This document shows, piece after piece, positions 3,187 to 32,545 of a stretch of DNA of 32,545 nucleotides. The position numbers and the translations under genes are program-made. Each line of letters opens with the position of its first letter. Position 1 is the stretch's first letter. Source of the DNA: a virus; IMG/VR virus record IMGVR_UViG_3300017951_004600, positions 1 to 32,545 of that record; one strand, given 5' to 3'. Under the pieces are notes generated by a model, which was not told where the DNA came from, did no database searches, and saw only the letters and a list, made by a program, of their open reading frames with translations.

Positions 3187-3713
3187 ACATTTTCTTCACC
3201 GACGAACACCCAACCATCGCCGCTCGGAACCTGTGCGACGACCATGTGGTCTCGCAGTTCAAAGAGACGATTCAAATGCTCGTGGCCGCCGCTTTGCTCC
3301 GTGGGGCTGACCCCAACGCCATGCCCCTCACACTCTCGGGCCGCCCGCACCGTGGGGGCTACAAACACCACCCATGCACACGCTGGGCGTCTGAGAACCC
3401 AGCGAATTGGAATTGGCTCTGCGACCATGGCCTCGCCATCGGCGAGCAGTTCCGTATGCGCTTTGACAACCACACCAGCATTCTCCACGACCAAATCCGA
3501 CTGCTGGCCGTGTCCCGAGACACCATCCTCCGCCACTTTGACGAGGAGTGGGGCATGACAGAGCCAGCCCGTGCGCTGAACCAAAGCATCGGCGAGAACC
3601 TTGACCTTCTCGGCGACGACATCACCACGGTAGAGGCATACCGCCTCTATTATCAGCGGGACAAGCGGGCCTTCGCCGAGTGGAAATATACGCCTGCTCC
3701 CGATTGGTTTTGA
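3183..3713 (+). CDS. Conserved phage protein, 176 aa (N-terminal FFTDEHP, C-terminal WK..PDWF)
   Basis: The pattern matches a family I know from many marine phages and cyanophages: an N-terminal 'F-T/L-D-P-AA' segment, then a D-H-V-x-K/Q-F-E-x-x-QML helix (here DDHVVSQFKETIQML), an HPC/THPCTRW-like segment (HHPCTRWASENPANWNWL), and the ending YRLYYQRDKRAFAEWK...PDWF. Members are often auto-annotated as pyrimidine-dimer DNA glycosylase or left hypothetical; I cannot confirm the activity. The GTG start overlaps the upstream stop (GTGA), so translation is probably coupled. Its presence in an archaeal virus suggests exchange with bacterial phages or a very old shared family. Confidence 0.7.
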   Translation: MNIFFTDEHPTIAARNLCDDHVVSQFKETIQMLVAAALLRGADPNAMPLTLSGRPHRGGYKHHPCTRWASENPANWNWLCDHGLAIGEQFRMRFDNHTSILHDQIRLLAVSRDTILRHFDEEWGMTEPARALNQSIGENLDLLGDDITTVEAYRLYYQRDKRAFAEWKYTPAPDWF

Positions 3714-3721
3714 GCGGTAGG

Positions 3722-3751
3722 TTAATATAGGAGTGTATGCTACGACTATAC
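3722..3751 (+). promoter_or_regulatory. Class A promoter (leaderless)
   Basis: TTAATATAGG starts 30 bases before the ATG at 3752, with GAGCGGTAGG upstream and GAGTG downstream. An in-frame ATG at 3737 lies inside the promoter and would fall upstream of the expected transcript start. Confidence 0.85.
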
Positions 3752-5911: not shown

Positions 5912-5923
5912 AGAGGTGCAAGA

Positions 5924-5957
5924 GGGCATAGAGCCTATGTTTCAGTCGGTTATGCCC
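5924..5957. terminator. Inverted repeat after the tail hub gene
   Basis: GGGCATA (5924-5930) and TATGCCC (5951-5957) form a 7-bp stem with a 20-base loop, 13 bases beyond the tail hub stop. It could end the plus-strand hub transcript or the minus-strand RNA that arrives from 6033; no long T-tract follows on either side. Confidence 0.4.
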
Positions 5958-6033
5958 CCTTGCGGGGTGTCCGTCATTGACGCAGGGAGCGAGAACTTTG
6001 CCCTCTCGGGATTCTCGGTATGCGTCTCGGGAC
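5924..6033 (-). ncRNA. Candidate structured ncRNA 2 (minus strand)
   Basis: A class A promoter on the minus strand predicts an RNA starting near 6033 and running left; no ATG lies at the start, and the only frame there would overlap the hub gene antisense. Read on the minus strand, the RNA forms a nested hairpin: GACGCA (6026-6021) with TGCGTC (5984-5979), inside it GAGAA with TTCTC, inside that CCC-GAGA-GGG. Next comes CCCC-GCAA-GGGG (5967-5956). Both tips are GNRA tetraloops (GAGA, GCAA) only on this strand, which supports minus-strand transcription. The 3' end is uncertain; 5924 is the end of the inverted repeat. Function unknown. Confidence 0.55.
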
Positions 6034-6063
6034 AAATTGTCCTATGAACCACTCCTATATGAA
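6034..6063 (-). promoter_or_regulatory. Class A promoter on the minus strand
   Basis: Read on the minus strand, GAGCGACACC is followed by TTCATATAGG (6063-6054) and AGTGG, nearly identical to the promoter at 389. It points leftward, away from the helicase gene, and predicts a transcript start near 6033. No start codon lies at that position. Confidence 0.7.
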
Positions 6064-6087
6064 GGTGTCGCTCAAAGGAGATGAAGC

Positions 6088-6276
6088 GGCACCCGCCTAT
6101 GGCGTCGTTCTCCGACCCTCCCTCACACGACCTTCTCCGAGGCACCCCGTCCCAGCGAAGAGAAGCGGAGTGCGACGAAGGAACTTCGTGGACTCGTGGT
6201 CGGCGACCCATAGGCGGGCACCTTTGTCCCCCCGACTCGCATCGGGAGGTGCTTCGGTCGGGGTTGTTGCCCCAAC
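6088..6276 (-). ncRNA. Candidate structured ncRNA 1 (minus strand, ~190 nt)
   Basis: A minus-strand class A promoter predicts a transcript start near 6276. No ATG occurs at that point. The predicted RNA has a 15-bp closing helix between 6222-6208 and 6102-6088. On the minus strand it is unbroken, with two adjacent G-U wobbles; on the plus strand those two positions would be C-A mismatches, so the structure is favoured only in minus-strand RNA. Inside follow GTCG/CGAC and CCGACC/GGTCGG, an ACGAAG-TTC-CTTCGT hairpin, and GCACTCCG with CGGGGTGC. The 5' part holds CCCCGAC/GTCGGGG and a competing GGGG/CCCC pair. No known RNA family is recognised. It could be regulatory, catalytic or act in packaging. 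Confidence 0.6.
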
Positions 6277-6306
6277 AATCTATCGTAGCGGTCTCCCCTA
6301 TATCAA
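6277..6306 (-). promoter_or_regulatory. Class A promoter on the minus strand
   Basis: On the minus strand ACCGACACA is followed by TTGATATAGG (6306-6297) and GGAG. The 20 bases around it are almost the same as the plus-strand promoter at 24177. It predicts a start near 6276 for the structured RNA to its left. Confidence 0.7.
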
Positions 6307-6333
6307 TGTGTCGGTCTCAAAGGTTTAATTCAA

Positions 6334-6419
6334 GGGGCTTTTGGAAAAAATCCGACATGAAGAAAGGCTCGGCCGATAGGTTCTGAGCGTTCTCACCAGC
6401 AAAAATCGGAAAAAGCCCC
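6334..6419. repeat. Inverted repeat flanking a degenerate promoter
   Basis: GGGGCTTTT (6334-6342) and AAAAGCCCC (6411-6419) form a perfect 9-bp inverted repeat. Between them lie AT-rich stretches and a lone GGCCGATAGG, the element that normally precedes class A TATA boxes, without any TATA box after it. The piece may be part of an origin region or a decayed transcription unit. Confidence 0.4.
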
Positions 6420-6420
6420 C

Positions 6421-6461
6421 ATCATTAGCACCCCCCGTAGGGGGGTGCTACCCCTAATGAT
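6421..6461. repeat. Strong hairpin in the candidate origin region
   Basis: AGCACCCCCC (6427-6436) and GGGGGGTGCT (6440-6449) form a perfect 10-bp stem with a 3-base loop. ATCATT (6421-6426) and AATGAT (6456-6461) extend it with a 6-base bulge on one side. It lies in the longest gene-free stretch just upstream of the putative replicative helicase. It may be an origin structure or a bidirectional terminator. Confidence 0.6.
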
Positions 6462-6545
6462 TGAAACAGACTTACACACTAACACACACACACATAACAC
6501 AACATGTATGTATGAAAGGATAGGGGGGTGGGTCTGCATCATTGT

Positions 6546-6575
6546 TAAGAGGGTGGGGTTGGGCTTGAGGGGAGC
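6546..6575 (+). promoter_or_regulatory. Divergent class B promoter
   Basis: TTAAGAGGGTGGGG precedes the ATG at 6576. The GGTGGGG part matches class B, but the TATA core is degraded (TTAAGA rather than GAAATA) and the G-block is two bases further from the ATG than usual. Expression may be weaker or differently timed. Confidence 0.45.
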
Positions 6576-8570
6576 ATGGCCCCCGATGTTGTCGTTCACC
6601 AATCCACCGAGTCGTCGTCCGACTTCCTCTTTGACGCCGCCGACCTGCCCGTCCGCTTGACCTTCCTGTCGTCCACCAAGGGACGCATGGAGTTCAGCGC
6701 CGAGGTGGATGGCGAACCCAAGGGCAAGGTGAATGTCCTGTCTCAGCACTCCATCGCTCGGCTCGCCAAGTCGTCGCTCAAGGACGATTCGCTCAAGGAT
6801 GAGTTCGTGGGGACCCTTCTGAAGGCTGGCGTGATTCTCCGAGAAGGCACCTATGTGGTCGCCACCATGGAGGACAAAACGACCGCCGAGGTCATGTCGC
6901 TTGAGGGCGAATCCTCATCCTACGGGGACATTGACCCAACGACCATTAGCAAGTTCCTCGGAGAGCGATTCCTGCTGGACCGCATCAACGAGATTCTCCA
7001 CGAGAGCCGTGAGACGCCGTTCGTCGGCGACGACGCCAACCTCCTGCTCACCTTCCTCGTGTTCCTGTCCTGCAAGACGGACAACCCGCTCAACCTTGAG
7101 ATGATTGGGCAGTCGGCCAGCGGCAAGACCTACATGACCTTGACCGCTCGCAACGGGTTCCCCAAGTCCATGATTATGGTTCTCGCTGGCGCCTCCAAGG
7201 AGGCTCTGAAATACGACTACGACGAGGTGGACGAGGACGGGAACTTCATCGTCAATGTGGACGGCCGTTGCATCGTCGTCTTGGAGAAGGACGAGTCGTT
7301 TGCCTTCATCAAGAAAATGAAGCCCATCATGTCGGGCGACGACACGGAACTCGTGTGGAAAACGCCCATCAAGAACGAACTATCGGGTGAAATAGAGACA
7401 CGGGACTTCATCATCCGTGGCCGACCATCGTTCATCACGCTCACCACTCGCAACCCCAGCGAGCAGGAGCAAATCACCCGCCAATTGATAATGACTCCCG
7501 ACACCACCGTGGAGAAGGTGAATGAGGTGGTTAAGAACGCCTTGCTGGCCAAGGCTCGCCCCGAGACCTTCAAGGTGCACCCCGACCTCAAAATGCTCCA
7601 AGCGTCTATGCTCTCGCTCAACCGATACCGTGTGCGGAACATTTTCGCCCCGCTCATGGTGGACTTCTTCCCCGCTCGCAACGCCCAGCACCAGCGAGAC
7701 ATTGGGAAGGTGCTCTCCATCATTGACGCCGTGGCCTTGCTCCACCAGCACCAGCGACCCGTGCAAAAGGACGAGCACGGGGACGAATACCTGCTCGCCT
7801 CCGTGGAGGATAATGTCATTGGACTCATGCTCTGCGACCTCGTTCTCCGAGCCAGCCTGTCGGGCGTCCCCGACGACACTTGGTCCGTGTATCAGCAAAT
7901 GACGGCCATGGACGAGGCCAAACGCCCGCTCACCGAGGATAACATTCTCCAATGGCTCGGCATCCACGCTTTCACCATCAGCAAAAACGCTCTGAAAGAG
8001 AAGCACCTCCCCACCCTTGAGGATGCTGGCCTTATTGAGGTCGGTAGGCGTGGCGGAGGGCGCGGTGGCGGCAAGAAGTCATTCCGCCTCGTCAAATCGC
8101 GAGTCGGACTCATGGACGACTACGCACTTTCACCTCTGTTCGTGGAAGCGGCGGCGGCGAACCTACGCGCCCTCGCCGAGGAATATAGCGATGTTCTCGC
8201 CAGCACCGAGCCAGCCGCTCACCGATTCCCGTTGAAGGCGCAAGACCAAACCCTTCTCCGCTCCATCGGGTGCCCCAGCAAGGAGGCGTCCGAGGTTTGG
8301 CGGTCTCTGTTCCTCCCATCCTACCTGCGCCCTGCTGGACGCTCAACGCTCCTGTGGGACATTGTAGGCAAGGACTCCAAGCACCGAGACAACCTGTTCG
8401 CTGGGGACGCTTGGTTCAACGCCACGAGCGACGCCACGGCGGCATTGAGCAAGCGCCGAGAGGTCAAGGAAGCCATCAAGACTGCCTCGCAGTCCAGCGG
8501 TTTGGACAACGACGACCTGTGGGAAGCGATGATGGATGCACACCTCGCTGGACTTGAGGATGAGGATTGA
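6576..8570 (+). CDS. P-loop ATPase, probable replicative helicase with winged-helix region
   Basis: A 664-residue protein with Walker A GQSASGKT (178-185) and Walker B CIVVLEKDE (232-240). The segment before Walker A (FLLDRINEILHES...NLLLTFLVFLSCKTDNPLNLEMIGQSASGKT) and the SMIMVLAGASKEAL segment after it resemble ATPase domains of virus and plasmid helicase/primase-helicases of the AAA+/SF3-like group. A region at about 456-510 with helices and a Gly/Lys/Arg wing (VGRRGGGRGGGKK) looks like a winged helix. It probably drives DNA unwinding at the origin next to it. MCM-like or DUF-type ATPases are alternatives. The next gene is the SSB, which fits a replication unit. Confidence 0.7.
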   Translation: MAPDVVVHQSTESSSDFLFDAADLPVRLTFLSSTKGRMEFSAEVDGEPKGKVNVLSQHSIARLAKSSLKDDSLKDEFVGTLLKAGVILREGTYVVATMEDKTTAEVMSLEGESSSYGDIDPTTISKFLGERFLLDRINEILHESRETPFVGDDANLLLTFLVFLSCKTDNPLNLEMIGQSASGKTYMTLTARNGFPKSMIMVLAGASKEALKYDYDEVDEDGNFIVNVDGRCIVVLEKDESFAFIKKMKPIMSGDDTELVWKTPIKNELSGEIETRDFIIRGRPSFITLTTRNPSEQEQITRQLIMTPDTTVEKVNEVVKNALLAKARPETFKVHPDLKMLQASMLSLNRYRVRNIFAPLMVDFFPARNAQHQRDIGKVLSIIDAVALLHQHQRPVQKDEHGDEYLLASVEDNVIGLMLCDLVLRASLSGVPDDTWSVYQQMTAMDEAKRPLTEDNILQWLGIHAFTISKNALKEKHLPTLEDAGLIEVGRRGGGRGGGKKSFRLVKSRVGLMDDYALSPLFVEAAAANLRALAEEYSDVLASTEPAAHRFPLKAQDQTLLRSIGCPSKEASEVWRSLFLPSYLRPAGRSTLLWDIVGKDSKHRDNLFAGDAWFNATSDATAALSKRREVKEAIKTASQSSGLDNDDLWEAMMDAHLAGLEDED

Positions 8571-24050: not shown

Positions 24051-24168
24051 TTGGGTCGGCTGGCTCATCGCATCCGAGGTGGTGTGGTGGCTCGCAGTCG
24101 GCGTGTTTCTTCATCAAGTCCGAGCGCTATGGAAGGGTATTGAATCCATCCCCGTTGAACTCCTTTGA
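24043..24168 (+). CDS. Tiny membrane protein at the end of the tail operon, 41 aa
   Basis: GTG at 24043 overlaps the giant tail gene by eight bases and has GGGAGG (24028-24033) as ribosome site. The product is one hydrophobic, Trp-rich helix (VVWWLAVGVFLHQVRALW) and a short tail. Its size, single helix and late position fit a holin-like or virion-associated membrane peptide, but archaeal virus lysis genes are poorly known, so this is only a suggestion. Confidence 0.55.
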   Translation: MLDWVGWLIASEVVWWLAVGVFLHQVRALWKGIESIPVELL

Positions 24169-24176
24169 CCGACACA

Positions 24177-24206
24177 TTGATATAGGGGTGGTGCATAGGG
24201 TGAAAC
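24177..24206 (+). promoter_or_regulatory. Class A promoter (leaderless)
   Basis: TTGATATAGG begins 30 bases before the ATG at 24207, preceded by GACCGACACA. It is nearly identical to the minus-strand promoter of candidate ncRNA 1. Confidence 0.85.
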
Positions 24207-28937: not shown

Positions 28938-30302
28938 GTGGCCGAGACACCCGAGGAACTACGCGCCCTCCTGCGAGCGGCAGGTTTGCCCGTCTTTGAG
29001 TCCGAGACCTCCAAGGAACTCCGATACCGTGCACGACAGGCTGGTTTAGTGGCCTCCACGGCCACAGGAACGGGCGCTACGGGACCGCAAGGCCCTCGGG
29101 GTCTCCAAGGCCCAGCGGGACCAACGGGGGCCACAGGAGCGACAGGAGCGACAGGAGCGACAGGACCCGCAGGTGCTACGGGCGCCACGGGCGCGACAGG
29201 CCCCGCTGGGGCAGACGGTGCTGATGGGCTGGACGGTGCTACGGGCGCAACAGGCCCCGCAGGCCCCGCAGGAGCGGACGGAGCCGATGGCTTGGATGGA
29301 GCCACGGGACCCGCTGGCCCAATCGGACCGCAAGGACCCGCTGGTGCTGATGGTGCCGATGGGCTGGATGGCGCAACGGGGCCACAGGGGCCGCAAGGCA
29401 TTCAAGGCCCAGCAGGTGCAGATGGGGCCGATGGTTTGGACGGTGCGACAGGCCCGCAGGGACCCGCAGGCCCGCAGGGACCCGCAGGCCCCCAAGGACC
29501 TGCTGGCGCTGATGGAGCGGACGGATTGGATGGTGCGACAGGTCCCCAAGGGCCGATTGGCCCTGAAGGACCCGCTGGACCCGCTGGTGCCGATGGGAAC
29601 ACGATTGACATTTCAGCGCTCACGGCGAATACGCAGATTGCCGACGCCGACCTGCTCCTCTTGGACGACGGGGCTAATGGGACCAATAGGAAAATCACCT
29701 TCACCGAGGTCAAGGAGTGGATTCGGGGCGACGGCGTGATGGTCGGTCGGGATGGCGGAGTCCATGAATTGAGAATTAGGGACTCTCGCGATGATGGCGA
29801 ATTGTTGCCCGATTCCGTGGGCGATAAGCAGGTTCGGTTTGACTTCACCGACGACCTTAACACCTACACCCCGAGCGCCTATTGGACGGGGGTTATAACA
29901 ATGAAGGGATGGGGTGGCTCATACCGAGCCTTCCAATTGCTATCGTCGGCATCCAGCGAGGGGACCTCGGCGGTTGATACCGAGCCGCTCTATTTCAGAA
30001 GCGGAGAGGATAATGTGTGGGGCGCCATGCGTGAAGTCTTAACCTTCCCCGTGGGGCCTACGGGGAGCACTCCGAACGCCGATGGGCTGGCTGGTCAAGT
30101 CCTACAAACGGACGGAGCGGGGACGCTTTCGTGGGCGAGCCTCAATTTTGTGGATTTGGGGCTTGGTGGTCAAGAGCCGTTCAATGTCGCTCCGCCCGCC
30201 ACGGGGACAGAATGGCTGGGTGCTCCCCCCATCACAATTGAAGAAGCCCTCAACCGCCTCGCCGTCATCGTATCGGCCATGAATGGCGGGCCAATCCCTT
30301 GA
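28938..30302 (+). CDS. Collagen-like tail fibre protein
   Basis: A 454-residue protein with GTG start immediately after the previous stop and GGGAGG (about 28923-28928) as ribosome site. Residues 1-40 form a charged helix-rich head that recalls a SAP/LEM-like fold ([17 protein letters not shown]). Residues 44-220 are uninterrupted Gly-X-Y repeats, many in the unit [14 protein letters not shown], which should make a rigid triple helix. The C-terminal part has [17 protein letters not shown], a motif common in marine phage fibres, and ends in a short helix ([19 protein letters not shown]). It is likely the receptor-contact fibre. Confidence 0.88.
29067..29597 (+). repeat. Collagen-type coding repeat
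   Basis: About 59 Gly-X-Y triplets are encoded by near-repeats of 9, 15 and ~45 bases (e.g. CAGGAGCGA in tandem near 29135-29160). Synonymous changes break perfect identity. The tract may expand or shrink by recombination. Confidence 0.9.
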
Positions 30303-30910: not shown

Positions 30911-30940
30911 TTAATATAGGTGGGGCAACCACTTGACCTC
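30911..30940 (+). promoter_or_regulatory. Class B promoter with full TATA box (leaderless)
   Basis: TTAATATAGGTGGGG begins 30 bases before the ATG at 30941, two bases after the previous stop. The class A upstream element is absent. A GTG at 30920 in frame is inside the promoter. Confidence 0.8.
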
Positions 30941-31825
30941 ATGAAGAATGTGTTGGGTCTTTTTGACGGCATATCGTGTGGCCAAATCGCCTTGGAGCGT
31001 GCGGGCATCACCTATGACACCTATTATGCTTCTGAGATTGAGGAGCAGTCAATCGCCATCACCCAACACCACTTCCCAAAAACGGTTCAATTGGGCGACA
31101 TAACCAAATGGCGAGAATGGAACCTCCCATCACTTGACTTGATTATCGGGGGAAGTCCGTGTCAAGGCTTCTCATCGGCTGGGAAACGGTTGAACTTTGA
31201 CGACCCACGGAGCCGCCTGTTCTTTGAGTTCGTCGCCATCATCAAGCACTACAAACCAACCTATTGGCTTCTTGAGAATGTGGTCATGCAACCTCACATC
31301 AGAGACGCCATTTCAGCCACGCTTGGGGTGGAACCCGTGTTCATCAATTCCAACCTCGTGTCCGCTCAGAACAGAAAGCGGTATTATTGGACCAACATAC
31401 CCAATGTGTCGGAGCCTGCCGACGCCAACATATCCCTTGCGTCCATCCTTGAGGATTCTGAATACACCAATGGAGCGGGTATATGCGGGCGTAGGTTAAA
31501 TGAGCACGGGCATAGGAACGACTATGACAAATCGTTGCCCATCGTTCAATGCCTTCAAGTCGCACGACACGATAAGGCGCCATGTTTGACCACCGTGAGC
31601 AAGGATTCAGTCGTGAGCAAGCGGGCGAGTGGCCGATACCCACACGCCTATGAATCACCCGTCTTGGACGATTGGCGGGACCTAACCCTCTTGGAGTGCG
31701 AGCGGCTACAAACCTTGCCCGACGGCTATACCGATGTTGCAGGTGTGCCTCCAAGCAAGCGCCGACGAATCATTGGAAACGGTTGGACGGTTGATGTAAT
31801 CGCTCACATCATGAGACACATCTGA
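30941..31825 (+). CDS. DNA (cytosine-5) methyltransferase 1
   Basis: A complete 294-residue enzyme. Motif I is LFDGISCGQIAL (7-18), motif IV GGSPCQGFS (70-78, catalytic Cys74), motif VI LENV (111-114), motif VIII QNRKRYYW (143-150), and near the end RRIIGNGW with the motif X function. The target-recognition region (about 160-250) is short. The FDGISCG form resembles phage and DNMT3-like orphan enzymes. No restriction enzyme gene is adjacent in view, so it probably protects viral DNA or alters its expression. Its target cannot be read from sequence. Confidence 0.93.
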   Translation: MKNVLGLFDGISCGQIALERAGITYDTYYASEIEEQSIAITQHHFPKTVQLGDITKWREWNLPSLDLIIGGSPCQGFSSAGKRLNFDDPRSRLFFEFVAIIKHYKPTYWLLENVVMQPHIRDAISATLGVEPVFINSNLVSAQNRKRYYWTNIPNVSEPADANISLASILEDSEYTNGAGICGRRLNEHGHRNDYDKSLPIVQCLQVARHDKAPCLTTVSKDSVVSKRASGRYPHAYESPVLDDWRDLTLLECERLQTLPDGYTDVAGVPPSKRRRIIGNGWTVDVIAHIMRHI

Positions 31826-31833
31826 GCGTTGAA

Positions 31834-31862
31834 TATATATAGGTGAACAGGCTGGACAAACC
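31834..31862 (+). promoter_or_regulatory. Promoter of the second methyltransferase (leaderless)
   Basis: TATATATAGGTG begins 29 bases before the ATG at 31863. GAGCGTTGAA upstream is a weak class A element; the G-rich block after the box is replaced by AACAGG. Confidence 0.7.
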
Positions 31863-32545
31863 ATGCCCCGCCATATCCGTGTCGTCGGTCTTGACCTCTT
31901 CTGCGGGTGTGGCGGAGCGACGCAAGGACTGTTGAACGCTGGCGTTAAGGTCGTTGGTTCATTTGACGGCTGGGAGGTCGCCAAGGCCATGCACGAGCAT
32001 AACTTCCCCGATGTGCCCTTTGAACTGCGCTGGCTTGGGAAGGACCCTGCCGACGACCTGCGACGGATGGTTGAAATCCTTGCTCCATACCGAGCGCAAG
32101 GCGCTCATATCCATGTCCATGGCTCACCTCCATGTCAAGCGTTTTCCACCGCAAGCGGGAACCAATCAAAAACGACTCTTGAGGAAGGGTTGGCGAATGT
32201 GAACCACTACCTATGGCTCGTGGAGGAACTCAAAGCGCTGGACCTGTGCGACTCGTGGAGCATGGAGAATGTCATTCAAGTCCGAGCGCACTTCCCCCAC
32301 TTGCCCCATCAAATCCTGTGGTCTCACGAGTTCGGAGTGCCTCAGAAGAGAAAGCGATGGTTCGCTGGTGAGGGTTGGTTGGCGAAGCCCACCTTTGAGG
32401 GCGCGGCATGGGACGAGGTTCTCAACGACCACACGCTCCCACTTGATGCGGTCCTAAACACCGTTGGGGCGGGGATTAGTGGCTCCAATAGGTTGCGTGC
32501 TTCCGACACCCCCCGAGGAAATCCCTCACGGACTCTCACACGCCA
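31863..32545 (+). CDS. DNA (cytosine-5) methyltransferase 2 (3' truncated by window)
   Basis: The open frame runs past the window end; 227 codons are visible. Motif I is DLFCGCGGATQG (11-22), motif IV GSPPCQAFS (87-95, catalytic Cys91), motif VI MENV (134-137) and motif VIII GVPQKRKRWF (158-167). It is only distantly like the neighbouring enzyme, so the pair is not a recent duplication. The motif IV spacing and PPCQ form are those of typical modification enzymes. Together the two could protect two different motifs. Confidence 0.9.
   Translation, partial: MPRHIRVVGLDLFCGCGGATQGLLNAGVKVVGSFDGWEVAKAMHEHNFPDVPFELRWLGKDPADDLRRMVEILAPYRAQGAHIHVHGSPPCQAFSTASGNQSKTTLEEGLANVNHYLWLVEELKALDLCDSWSMENVIQVRAHFPHLPHQILWSHEFGVPQKRKRWFAGEGWLAKPTFEGAAWDEVLNDHTLPLDAVLNTVGAGISGSNRLRASDTPRGNPSRTLTR

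Follow-up and report, generated by a model that had tools for sequence, protein, structure and literature searches.

A predicted structured non-coding RNA (ncRNA), termed RNA1 here, is encoded on the minus strand of IMG/VR virus record IMGVR_UViG_3300017951_004600, which was analyzed over its full 32,545 bases and is referred to below as the window (WIN; labels of the form L0xx, and L100, denote related viral loci). Because it encodes an XPD-like helicase, an ERCC4-type nuclease and tape-measure genes (Pfam), the window probably derives from a tailed archaeal virus, the host being judged from gene content. RNA1 lies in a gap between a tail-protein gene and a gene for a 664-amino-acid protein, with the following features (nt, nucleotides):

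5912-6575: gap containing the RNA genes, between the two genes listed last
6293..6320, minus strand: class A promoter of RNA1, CCGACACATTGATATAGGGG; TATA at 6302-6299; 23.7 bits
6072..6280, minus strand: RNA1, predicted ncRNA of ~200 nt; 3′ end guessed at a pyrimidine/T run
6252..6280, minus strand: leader GATTGTTGGGGCAACAACCCCGACCGAAG; helix P1 is 6276-6270 with 6263-6257; spacer CGAAG at 6256-6252
6228..6249, minus strand: hairpin P2, 6249-6242 paired with 6235-6228
6088..6222, minus strand: payload, a long hairpin whose closing helix pairs 6222-6208 with 6102-6088
6050..6077, minus strand: second class A promoter; 31.7 bits
4106-5911: tail-protein gene; Pfam YQBQ-like, tail protein in PHROGs
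6576-8570: 664-amino-acid gene, without a Pfam or PHROGs family match

Promoter, fold and conserved 5′ module of RNA1

Promoters were scored with a weight matrix trained on the plus-strand sites of the window. A preliminary description of this DNA had placed the only minus-strand promoters of the window in the gap, and the strong minus-strand matches in 32.5 kilobases (kb) are indeed the two listed above, with a runner-up at 11.4 bits and a maximum of 13.2 bits over five mononucleotide shuffles. The RNA1 promoter shares 22 identical nt with the plus-strand promoter at 24167-24188, which precedes a 99-amino-acid open reading frame. Spacing between TATA box and leader is exactly 22 nt in 14 of 14 loci (ten distinct sequences) despite differing promoter sequences, and, because the ATG codons of messenger RNAs (mRNAs) in the same viruses sit at nearly the same distance from their promoters, the leader start is where transcription would be expected to begin. 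RNA1 is predicted to start near 6280. The preliminary description proposed a minus-strand start at about 6276, a position revised here to fit the invariant leader, whose first base lies 22 nt past the TATA box in all relatives and corresponds to 6280. Its interval of 6088-6306 likewise captured the feature and not the limits, the promoter running from 6320 and the predicted RNA ending near 6072.

The minus strand from 6280 to 6080 (201 nt) folds into a structure with 72 pairs and an energy of -115.2 kcal/mol (z -6.88), a value that none of 200 shuffles equals; the plus strand of the region reaches -93.9 kcal/mol (z -4.06), with 1 of 200 shuffles as good. The 15-base-pair (bp) helix that closes the payload comprises 13 Watson-Crick and two G-U pairs on the minus strand, and both G-U pairs turn into C-A/A-C mismatches on the plus strand, as originally described. 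The sense fold is better than the antisense fold in the window, L004, L061 and L072. In the window, L071 and L100, an additional helix could form between the CGAAG spacer and CTTC(G) 3′ of the payload; other members lack this option.

Related loci were gathered through the tail gene (13 loci), the 664-amino-acid gene (35 loci) and leader patterns (further contigs). The resulting comparison revealed a 5′ module consisting of a TATA box, 22 nt, the pattern G[AT]TTGT[AT]GGGG N6-8 CCCC NN CCGAAG (P1) and then hairpin P2. It defines a new family, the leader-A RNAs, established in this analysis; in the window, a class A TATA box precedes the leader pattern by 22 nt and P2 follows CCGAAG directly. 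Ten distinct sequences carry the module: WIN, L003 (with the same leader as L002), L004, L061, L014, L098, L020, L071, L072 and L100. Because their 664-amino-acid proteins, where tested, share 63-94% identity with the window protein, the carriers constitute one virus group, with genomes of up to ~80 kb. The leader is identical in the window clade, the L014 group and L020, and variant in L098, L071, L072 and L100; its 29 nt are unchanged among genomes whose 664-amino-acid proteins are 64-94% identical.

A covariance model of the module (R1) retrieved it once per genome at 45-50 bits (window, 45.9), with all other matches at ≤19 bits and no credible second copy per genome. Matches at 10-19 bits were dropped, lying in coding sequence or fitting the model poorly, and the three best-scored foreign matches, when inspected, displayed no leader with a promoter. 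A pattern scan of GTDB genome contigs did not detect the module, its seven scattered bacterial and archaeal matches being set aside as a number that fits chance, and relaxed leader patterns with free stems returned, beyond the known loci, only matches judged to be chance.

P1 spans 7 bp (8 in L098); L071 has a single A-C mismatch in it. The inner pair 7-24 of P1 is observed as U-G, U-A and A-U, the sole two-sided change in P1, and CCGAAG is invariant in all module members. P2 comprises 8, 10, 10, 5 and 8 bp in five unrelated stem sequences, every pair being standard; when arms are exchanged between members, ~51% of positions pair, and only 0.05-4% of shuffled sequences (frequency 0.0005-0.04) form a stem as good. 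By these comparisons, P2 keeps its structure and varies in sequence. An interaction of the 16S rRNA anti-Shine-Dalgarno sequence with P2 was considered and dropped for lack of sequence conservation in P2. A pseudoknot of the 5′ tail with the P1 loop (TTG with CAA) appears possible in all leaders.

The covariation check proposed in the preliminary description, preservation of the 15-bp helix by compensatory change in relatives, fails literally because the payload containing this helix was not encountered in any other genome fetched. What is conserved instead is the promoter, the fixed spacing, P1, CCGAAG and P2, the last as structure, and this comparative evidence supports the original proposal that the minus strand encodes a structured ncRNA served by a class A promoter of its own. 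The best reading of the leader-A RNAs, as predicted from sequence, is a new family of modular viral ncRNA genes.

Payload exchange and the surrounding accessory region

The payload 3′ of P2 measures ~130-490 nt and differs between most lineages, that of the window having no similarity to any other locus among the fetched genomes. Payloads of L061, L004 and L003 adopt another fold, with a few compensatory and several broken pairs, and L003 carries ~190 additional nt between P2 and this payload type. A third type is shared by L071 and L100, while L014 and L098 contain a unit of ~430-490 nt that is poorly alignable between the two, although its ends TGAATTG and CAATTCA do align. The most direct comparison is that of the window with L061, whose proteins flanking the gap are 96% and 94% identical to those of the window. 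The two sequences are 90% identical over 6900-6227, unrelated across the payload, 97% identical at 6076-6039 and 89% identical in the tail gene; homology ends at 6227, one base past P2, and restarts at the second promoter, 6076. Because the flanks are alike and the payloads unrelated, one payload has been swapped for another in the interval from P2 to the following promoter.

The second minus-strand promoter leads to a further predicted ncRNA, RNA2:

5920..6037, minus strand: RNA2, 5′ end at ~6037, 22 nt past its own TATA; promoter plus two conserved structured elements
5979..6026, minus strand: element B, GACGCATACCGAGAATCCC..GGGCAAAGTTCTCGCTCCCTGCGTC
5920..5961, minus strand: element C, a hairpin with conserved loop CCGACTGAAACATAGGC

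Element B is single in the window and double in L004 and L061, with two-sided changes in 3 of 6 outer pairs and 100% pairing. Element C displays two-sided change in 8 of 11 stem pairs with 97% pairing, and its covariation score is matched by 0 of 500 shuffles. By position, the same element also terminates, or nearly terminates, the L071 and L100 RNAs and a plus-strand RNA gene of L004 and L010. This plus-strand gene, with a class A promoter, the start AATACAAGGCC and element C as its end, is found at L003:2366-2516, L004:3095-3294 and L010:6425-6620.

Additional RNAs that appear to be non-coding follow other promoters in the gap (L064, L065, L068-L070 and L073), including an RNA of ~165 nt after a class A promoter, closed by GGAGAACCG / CGGTTCTCC, at L064:490-640 and L065:3610-3760. 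An RNA core, CCAAGCGAACTTCGGTTCCCCCCACCTCTTGATATGTGCTCATGGGCGG, occupies the same gap in opposite orientations in L070 (~3645-3735, plus strand) and L005 (~7855-7960, minus strand), with differing outer stems. Promoters of the gap also lead to small protein genes of 61-81 amino acids (e.g., MRNETATRNLTLRAMNF...) in L066 (a CxxC protein), L067, L069, L070 and L075. The gap thus constitutes an accessory region where RNA genes and protein genes take each other's place on either strand; the position and strand of the leader-A RNA genes vary between genomes. The remainder of the gap, 6320-6575, is a non-coding block that is 80-87% conserved in closer relatives and contains an inverted pair, GGGGCTTTT..AAAAAGCCCC, a hairpin, GCACCCCCCGTAGGGGGGTGC, and an AC-rich tract; it looks like a replication origin.

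Interpretation of RNA1

We regard it as probable that RNA1 is the gene for a structured trans-acting ncRNA with a constant 5′ module and an exchangeable payload, serving as an accessory effector in infection. A trans-acting RNA is preferred to either a peptide gene or a part of an origin because of the fixed start, the strand-specific folding, the single copy per genome, the free choice of place and strand, and the payload exchange. RNA1 might instead be a leaderless mRNA whose transcript begins GATTG and whose TTG initiates a small peptide (LLGQQPRPK...), given that mRNAs of this virus begin within a few nt of ATG and that in the window, L061 and L004 the TTG frame stays open for 51-75 codons. 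The leader is invariant, however, silent positions included, across genomes with 64-94% protein identity; two extra leader nt shift the frame in L098, TAG directly follows TTG in L071, L072 and L100, and the peptides have nothing in common past P2, with no Pfam match for overlapping frames and no conserved reading frame found among RNA1 relatives. These observations leave a peptide gene very unlikely. Action in cis, as a DNA or RNA element of the adjoining origin-like block (for example, a primer RNA or a ColE1-like copy-number RNA), would fit the conservation, hairpins and AC-rich tract of that block, at whose edge RNA1 starts. Yet the RNA is directed away from the block in the window and towards it in L071, L014, L020 and L098 carry the same leader elsewhere in the genome, and payloads vary although the block is conserved, so that this explanation is improbable.

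Two further alternatives accept an RNA product. A regulatory antisense or sponge RNA, base-pairing with viral or host mRNAs instead of binding proteins, would represent a frequent mode of action for microbial ncRNAs and is compatible with a constant leader and a variable part; we consider it unlikely, as most of RNA1 is locked in stable helices and the payload has no match beyond itself among the sequences searched, the window and related loci. The nearest known kind is that of the phage GOLLD and ROOL RNAs, large ornate RNAs, and RNA1 could be of this type and form an RNA-only particle. Both are virus-encoded, highly structured and of unknown function, and GOLLD combines a conserved 3′ region with a variable 5′ region (PMC12286853). 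The leader-A RNAs similarly join one well conserved end to a variable part, and the L014 and L098 versions reach ~490-540 nt. Against this, the GOLLD and ROOL covariance models gave no match at gathering score or E-value threshold, and there is no sequence match; the window version is just ~200 nt, its constant part is 5′, its payload is exchanged between near-identical genomes, no transfer RNA (tRNA) or transfer-messenger RNA was detected in the window by ARAGORN, and the viruses are probably archaeal. Membership in this type is accordingly rated improbable. An Rfam 15 search of the window likewise bore out the initial statement that RNA1 matches no known RNA family: no family reached its gathering threshold, and the best match (P11, 26.3 bits against a cutoff of 70) was taken as chance.

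Several points weigh against the effector RNA that we favor. Because the leader hardly varies, covariation in P1 is weak (a score at least as high arises in 49 of 500 shuffles, with few sequences); given these shuffles and the lone two-sided change, conservation of P1 is mostly at the sequence level. In the longest members, L003, L014, L098 and L020, the sense strand folds about as stably as the antisense strand, and, since the window payload is unique, its fold rests on a single sequence. The predicted RNA1 start has a TTG codon nearby, and the effector role is deduced from two features, hot-spot location and payload turnover.

We infer that RNA1 is transcribed, that its 3′ end lies where indicated, and that it acts in trans and binds protein. 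In the proposed mechanism, host RNA polymerase would start RNA1 at 6280, 22 nt past the TATA box of its class A promoter. P1 with CCGAAG would be a constant element, constrained mainly in sequence and probably serving recognition or stability, and P2 a spacer hairpin constrained mainly in structure. The payload closed by the long helix would be the lineage-specific part, exchanged as one cassette in the interval that separates P2 from the following promoter. RNA1 would then bind and divert a host factor (e.g., a defense or regulatory protein or RNA), with payloads exchanged as host targets change. A counter-defense or host-takeover role, suggested by the hot-spot behavior, is tentative. Somewhat more doubtful is the broader notion of an effector locus in which a constant promoter and 5′ recognition module are joined to interchangeable structured RNA payloads, with cassettes traded among archaeal viruses in their contest with hosts, an RNA counterpart of proteins that couple a constant delivery part to variable effector domains.

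To our knowledge, structured ncRNA genes are hardly known from archaeal viruses, and large viral ncRNAs generally lack an assigned function. Ten viral sequences allow the family described here to be defined through its promoter, its start site and its 5′ module, and payloads of the family are swapped naturally between nearly identical genomes, affording a ready comparison of different RNA payloads in one virus background. Should the payloads be counter-defense or host-takeover devices, they would represent a viral effector class wholly missed by protein-coding annotation. RNA anti-CRISPRs are phage ncRNAs that mimic CRISPR repeats; they resemble RNA1, in a comparison of role only, as small viral ncRNA genes with a possible decoy function, and differ in that the RNA1 payload is not repeat-like.

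In general type, though not as a family assignment, the virus resembles the tailed viruses of Poseidoniales (Marine Group II), the Magrovirales and Adrikavirales (PMC12451623, PMC13108676), in that it is tailed, of archaeal type by gene content, ~80 kb in genome size within its group and metagenomic in origin. The magrovirus paper searched mentions no ncRNA, promoter or intergenic region, and a literature search combining Poseidoniales, virus and non-coding RNA found no paper; phage records gave no DNA or protein match to the window. Elsewhere in the window, 28938-30302 encodes a collagen-like protein with Gly-X-Y repeats, probably a tail fiber, and two neighboring genes at 30920-32543 read like DNA cytosine methyltransferases.
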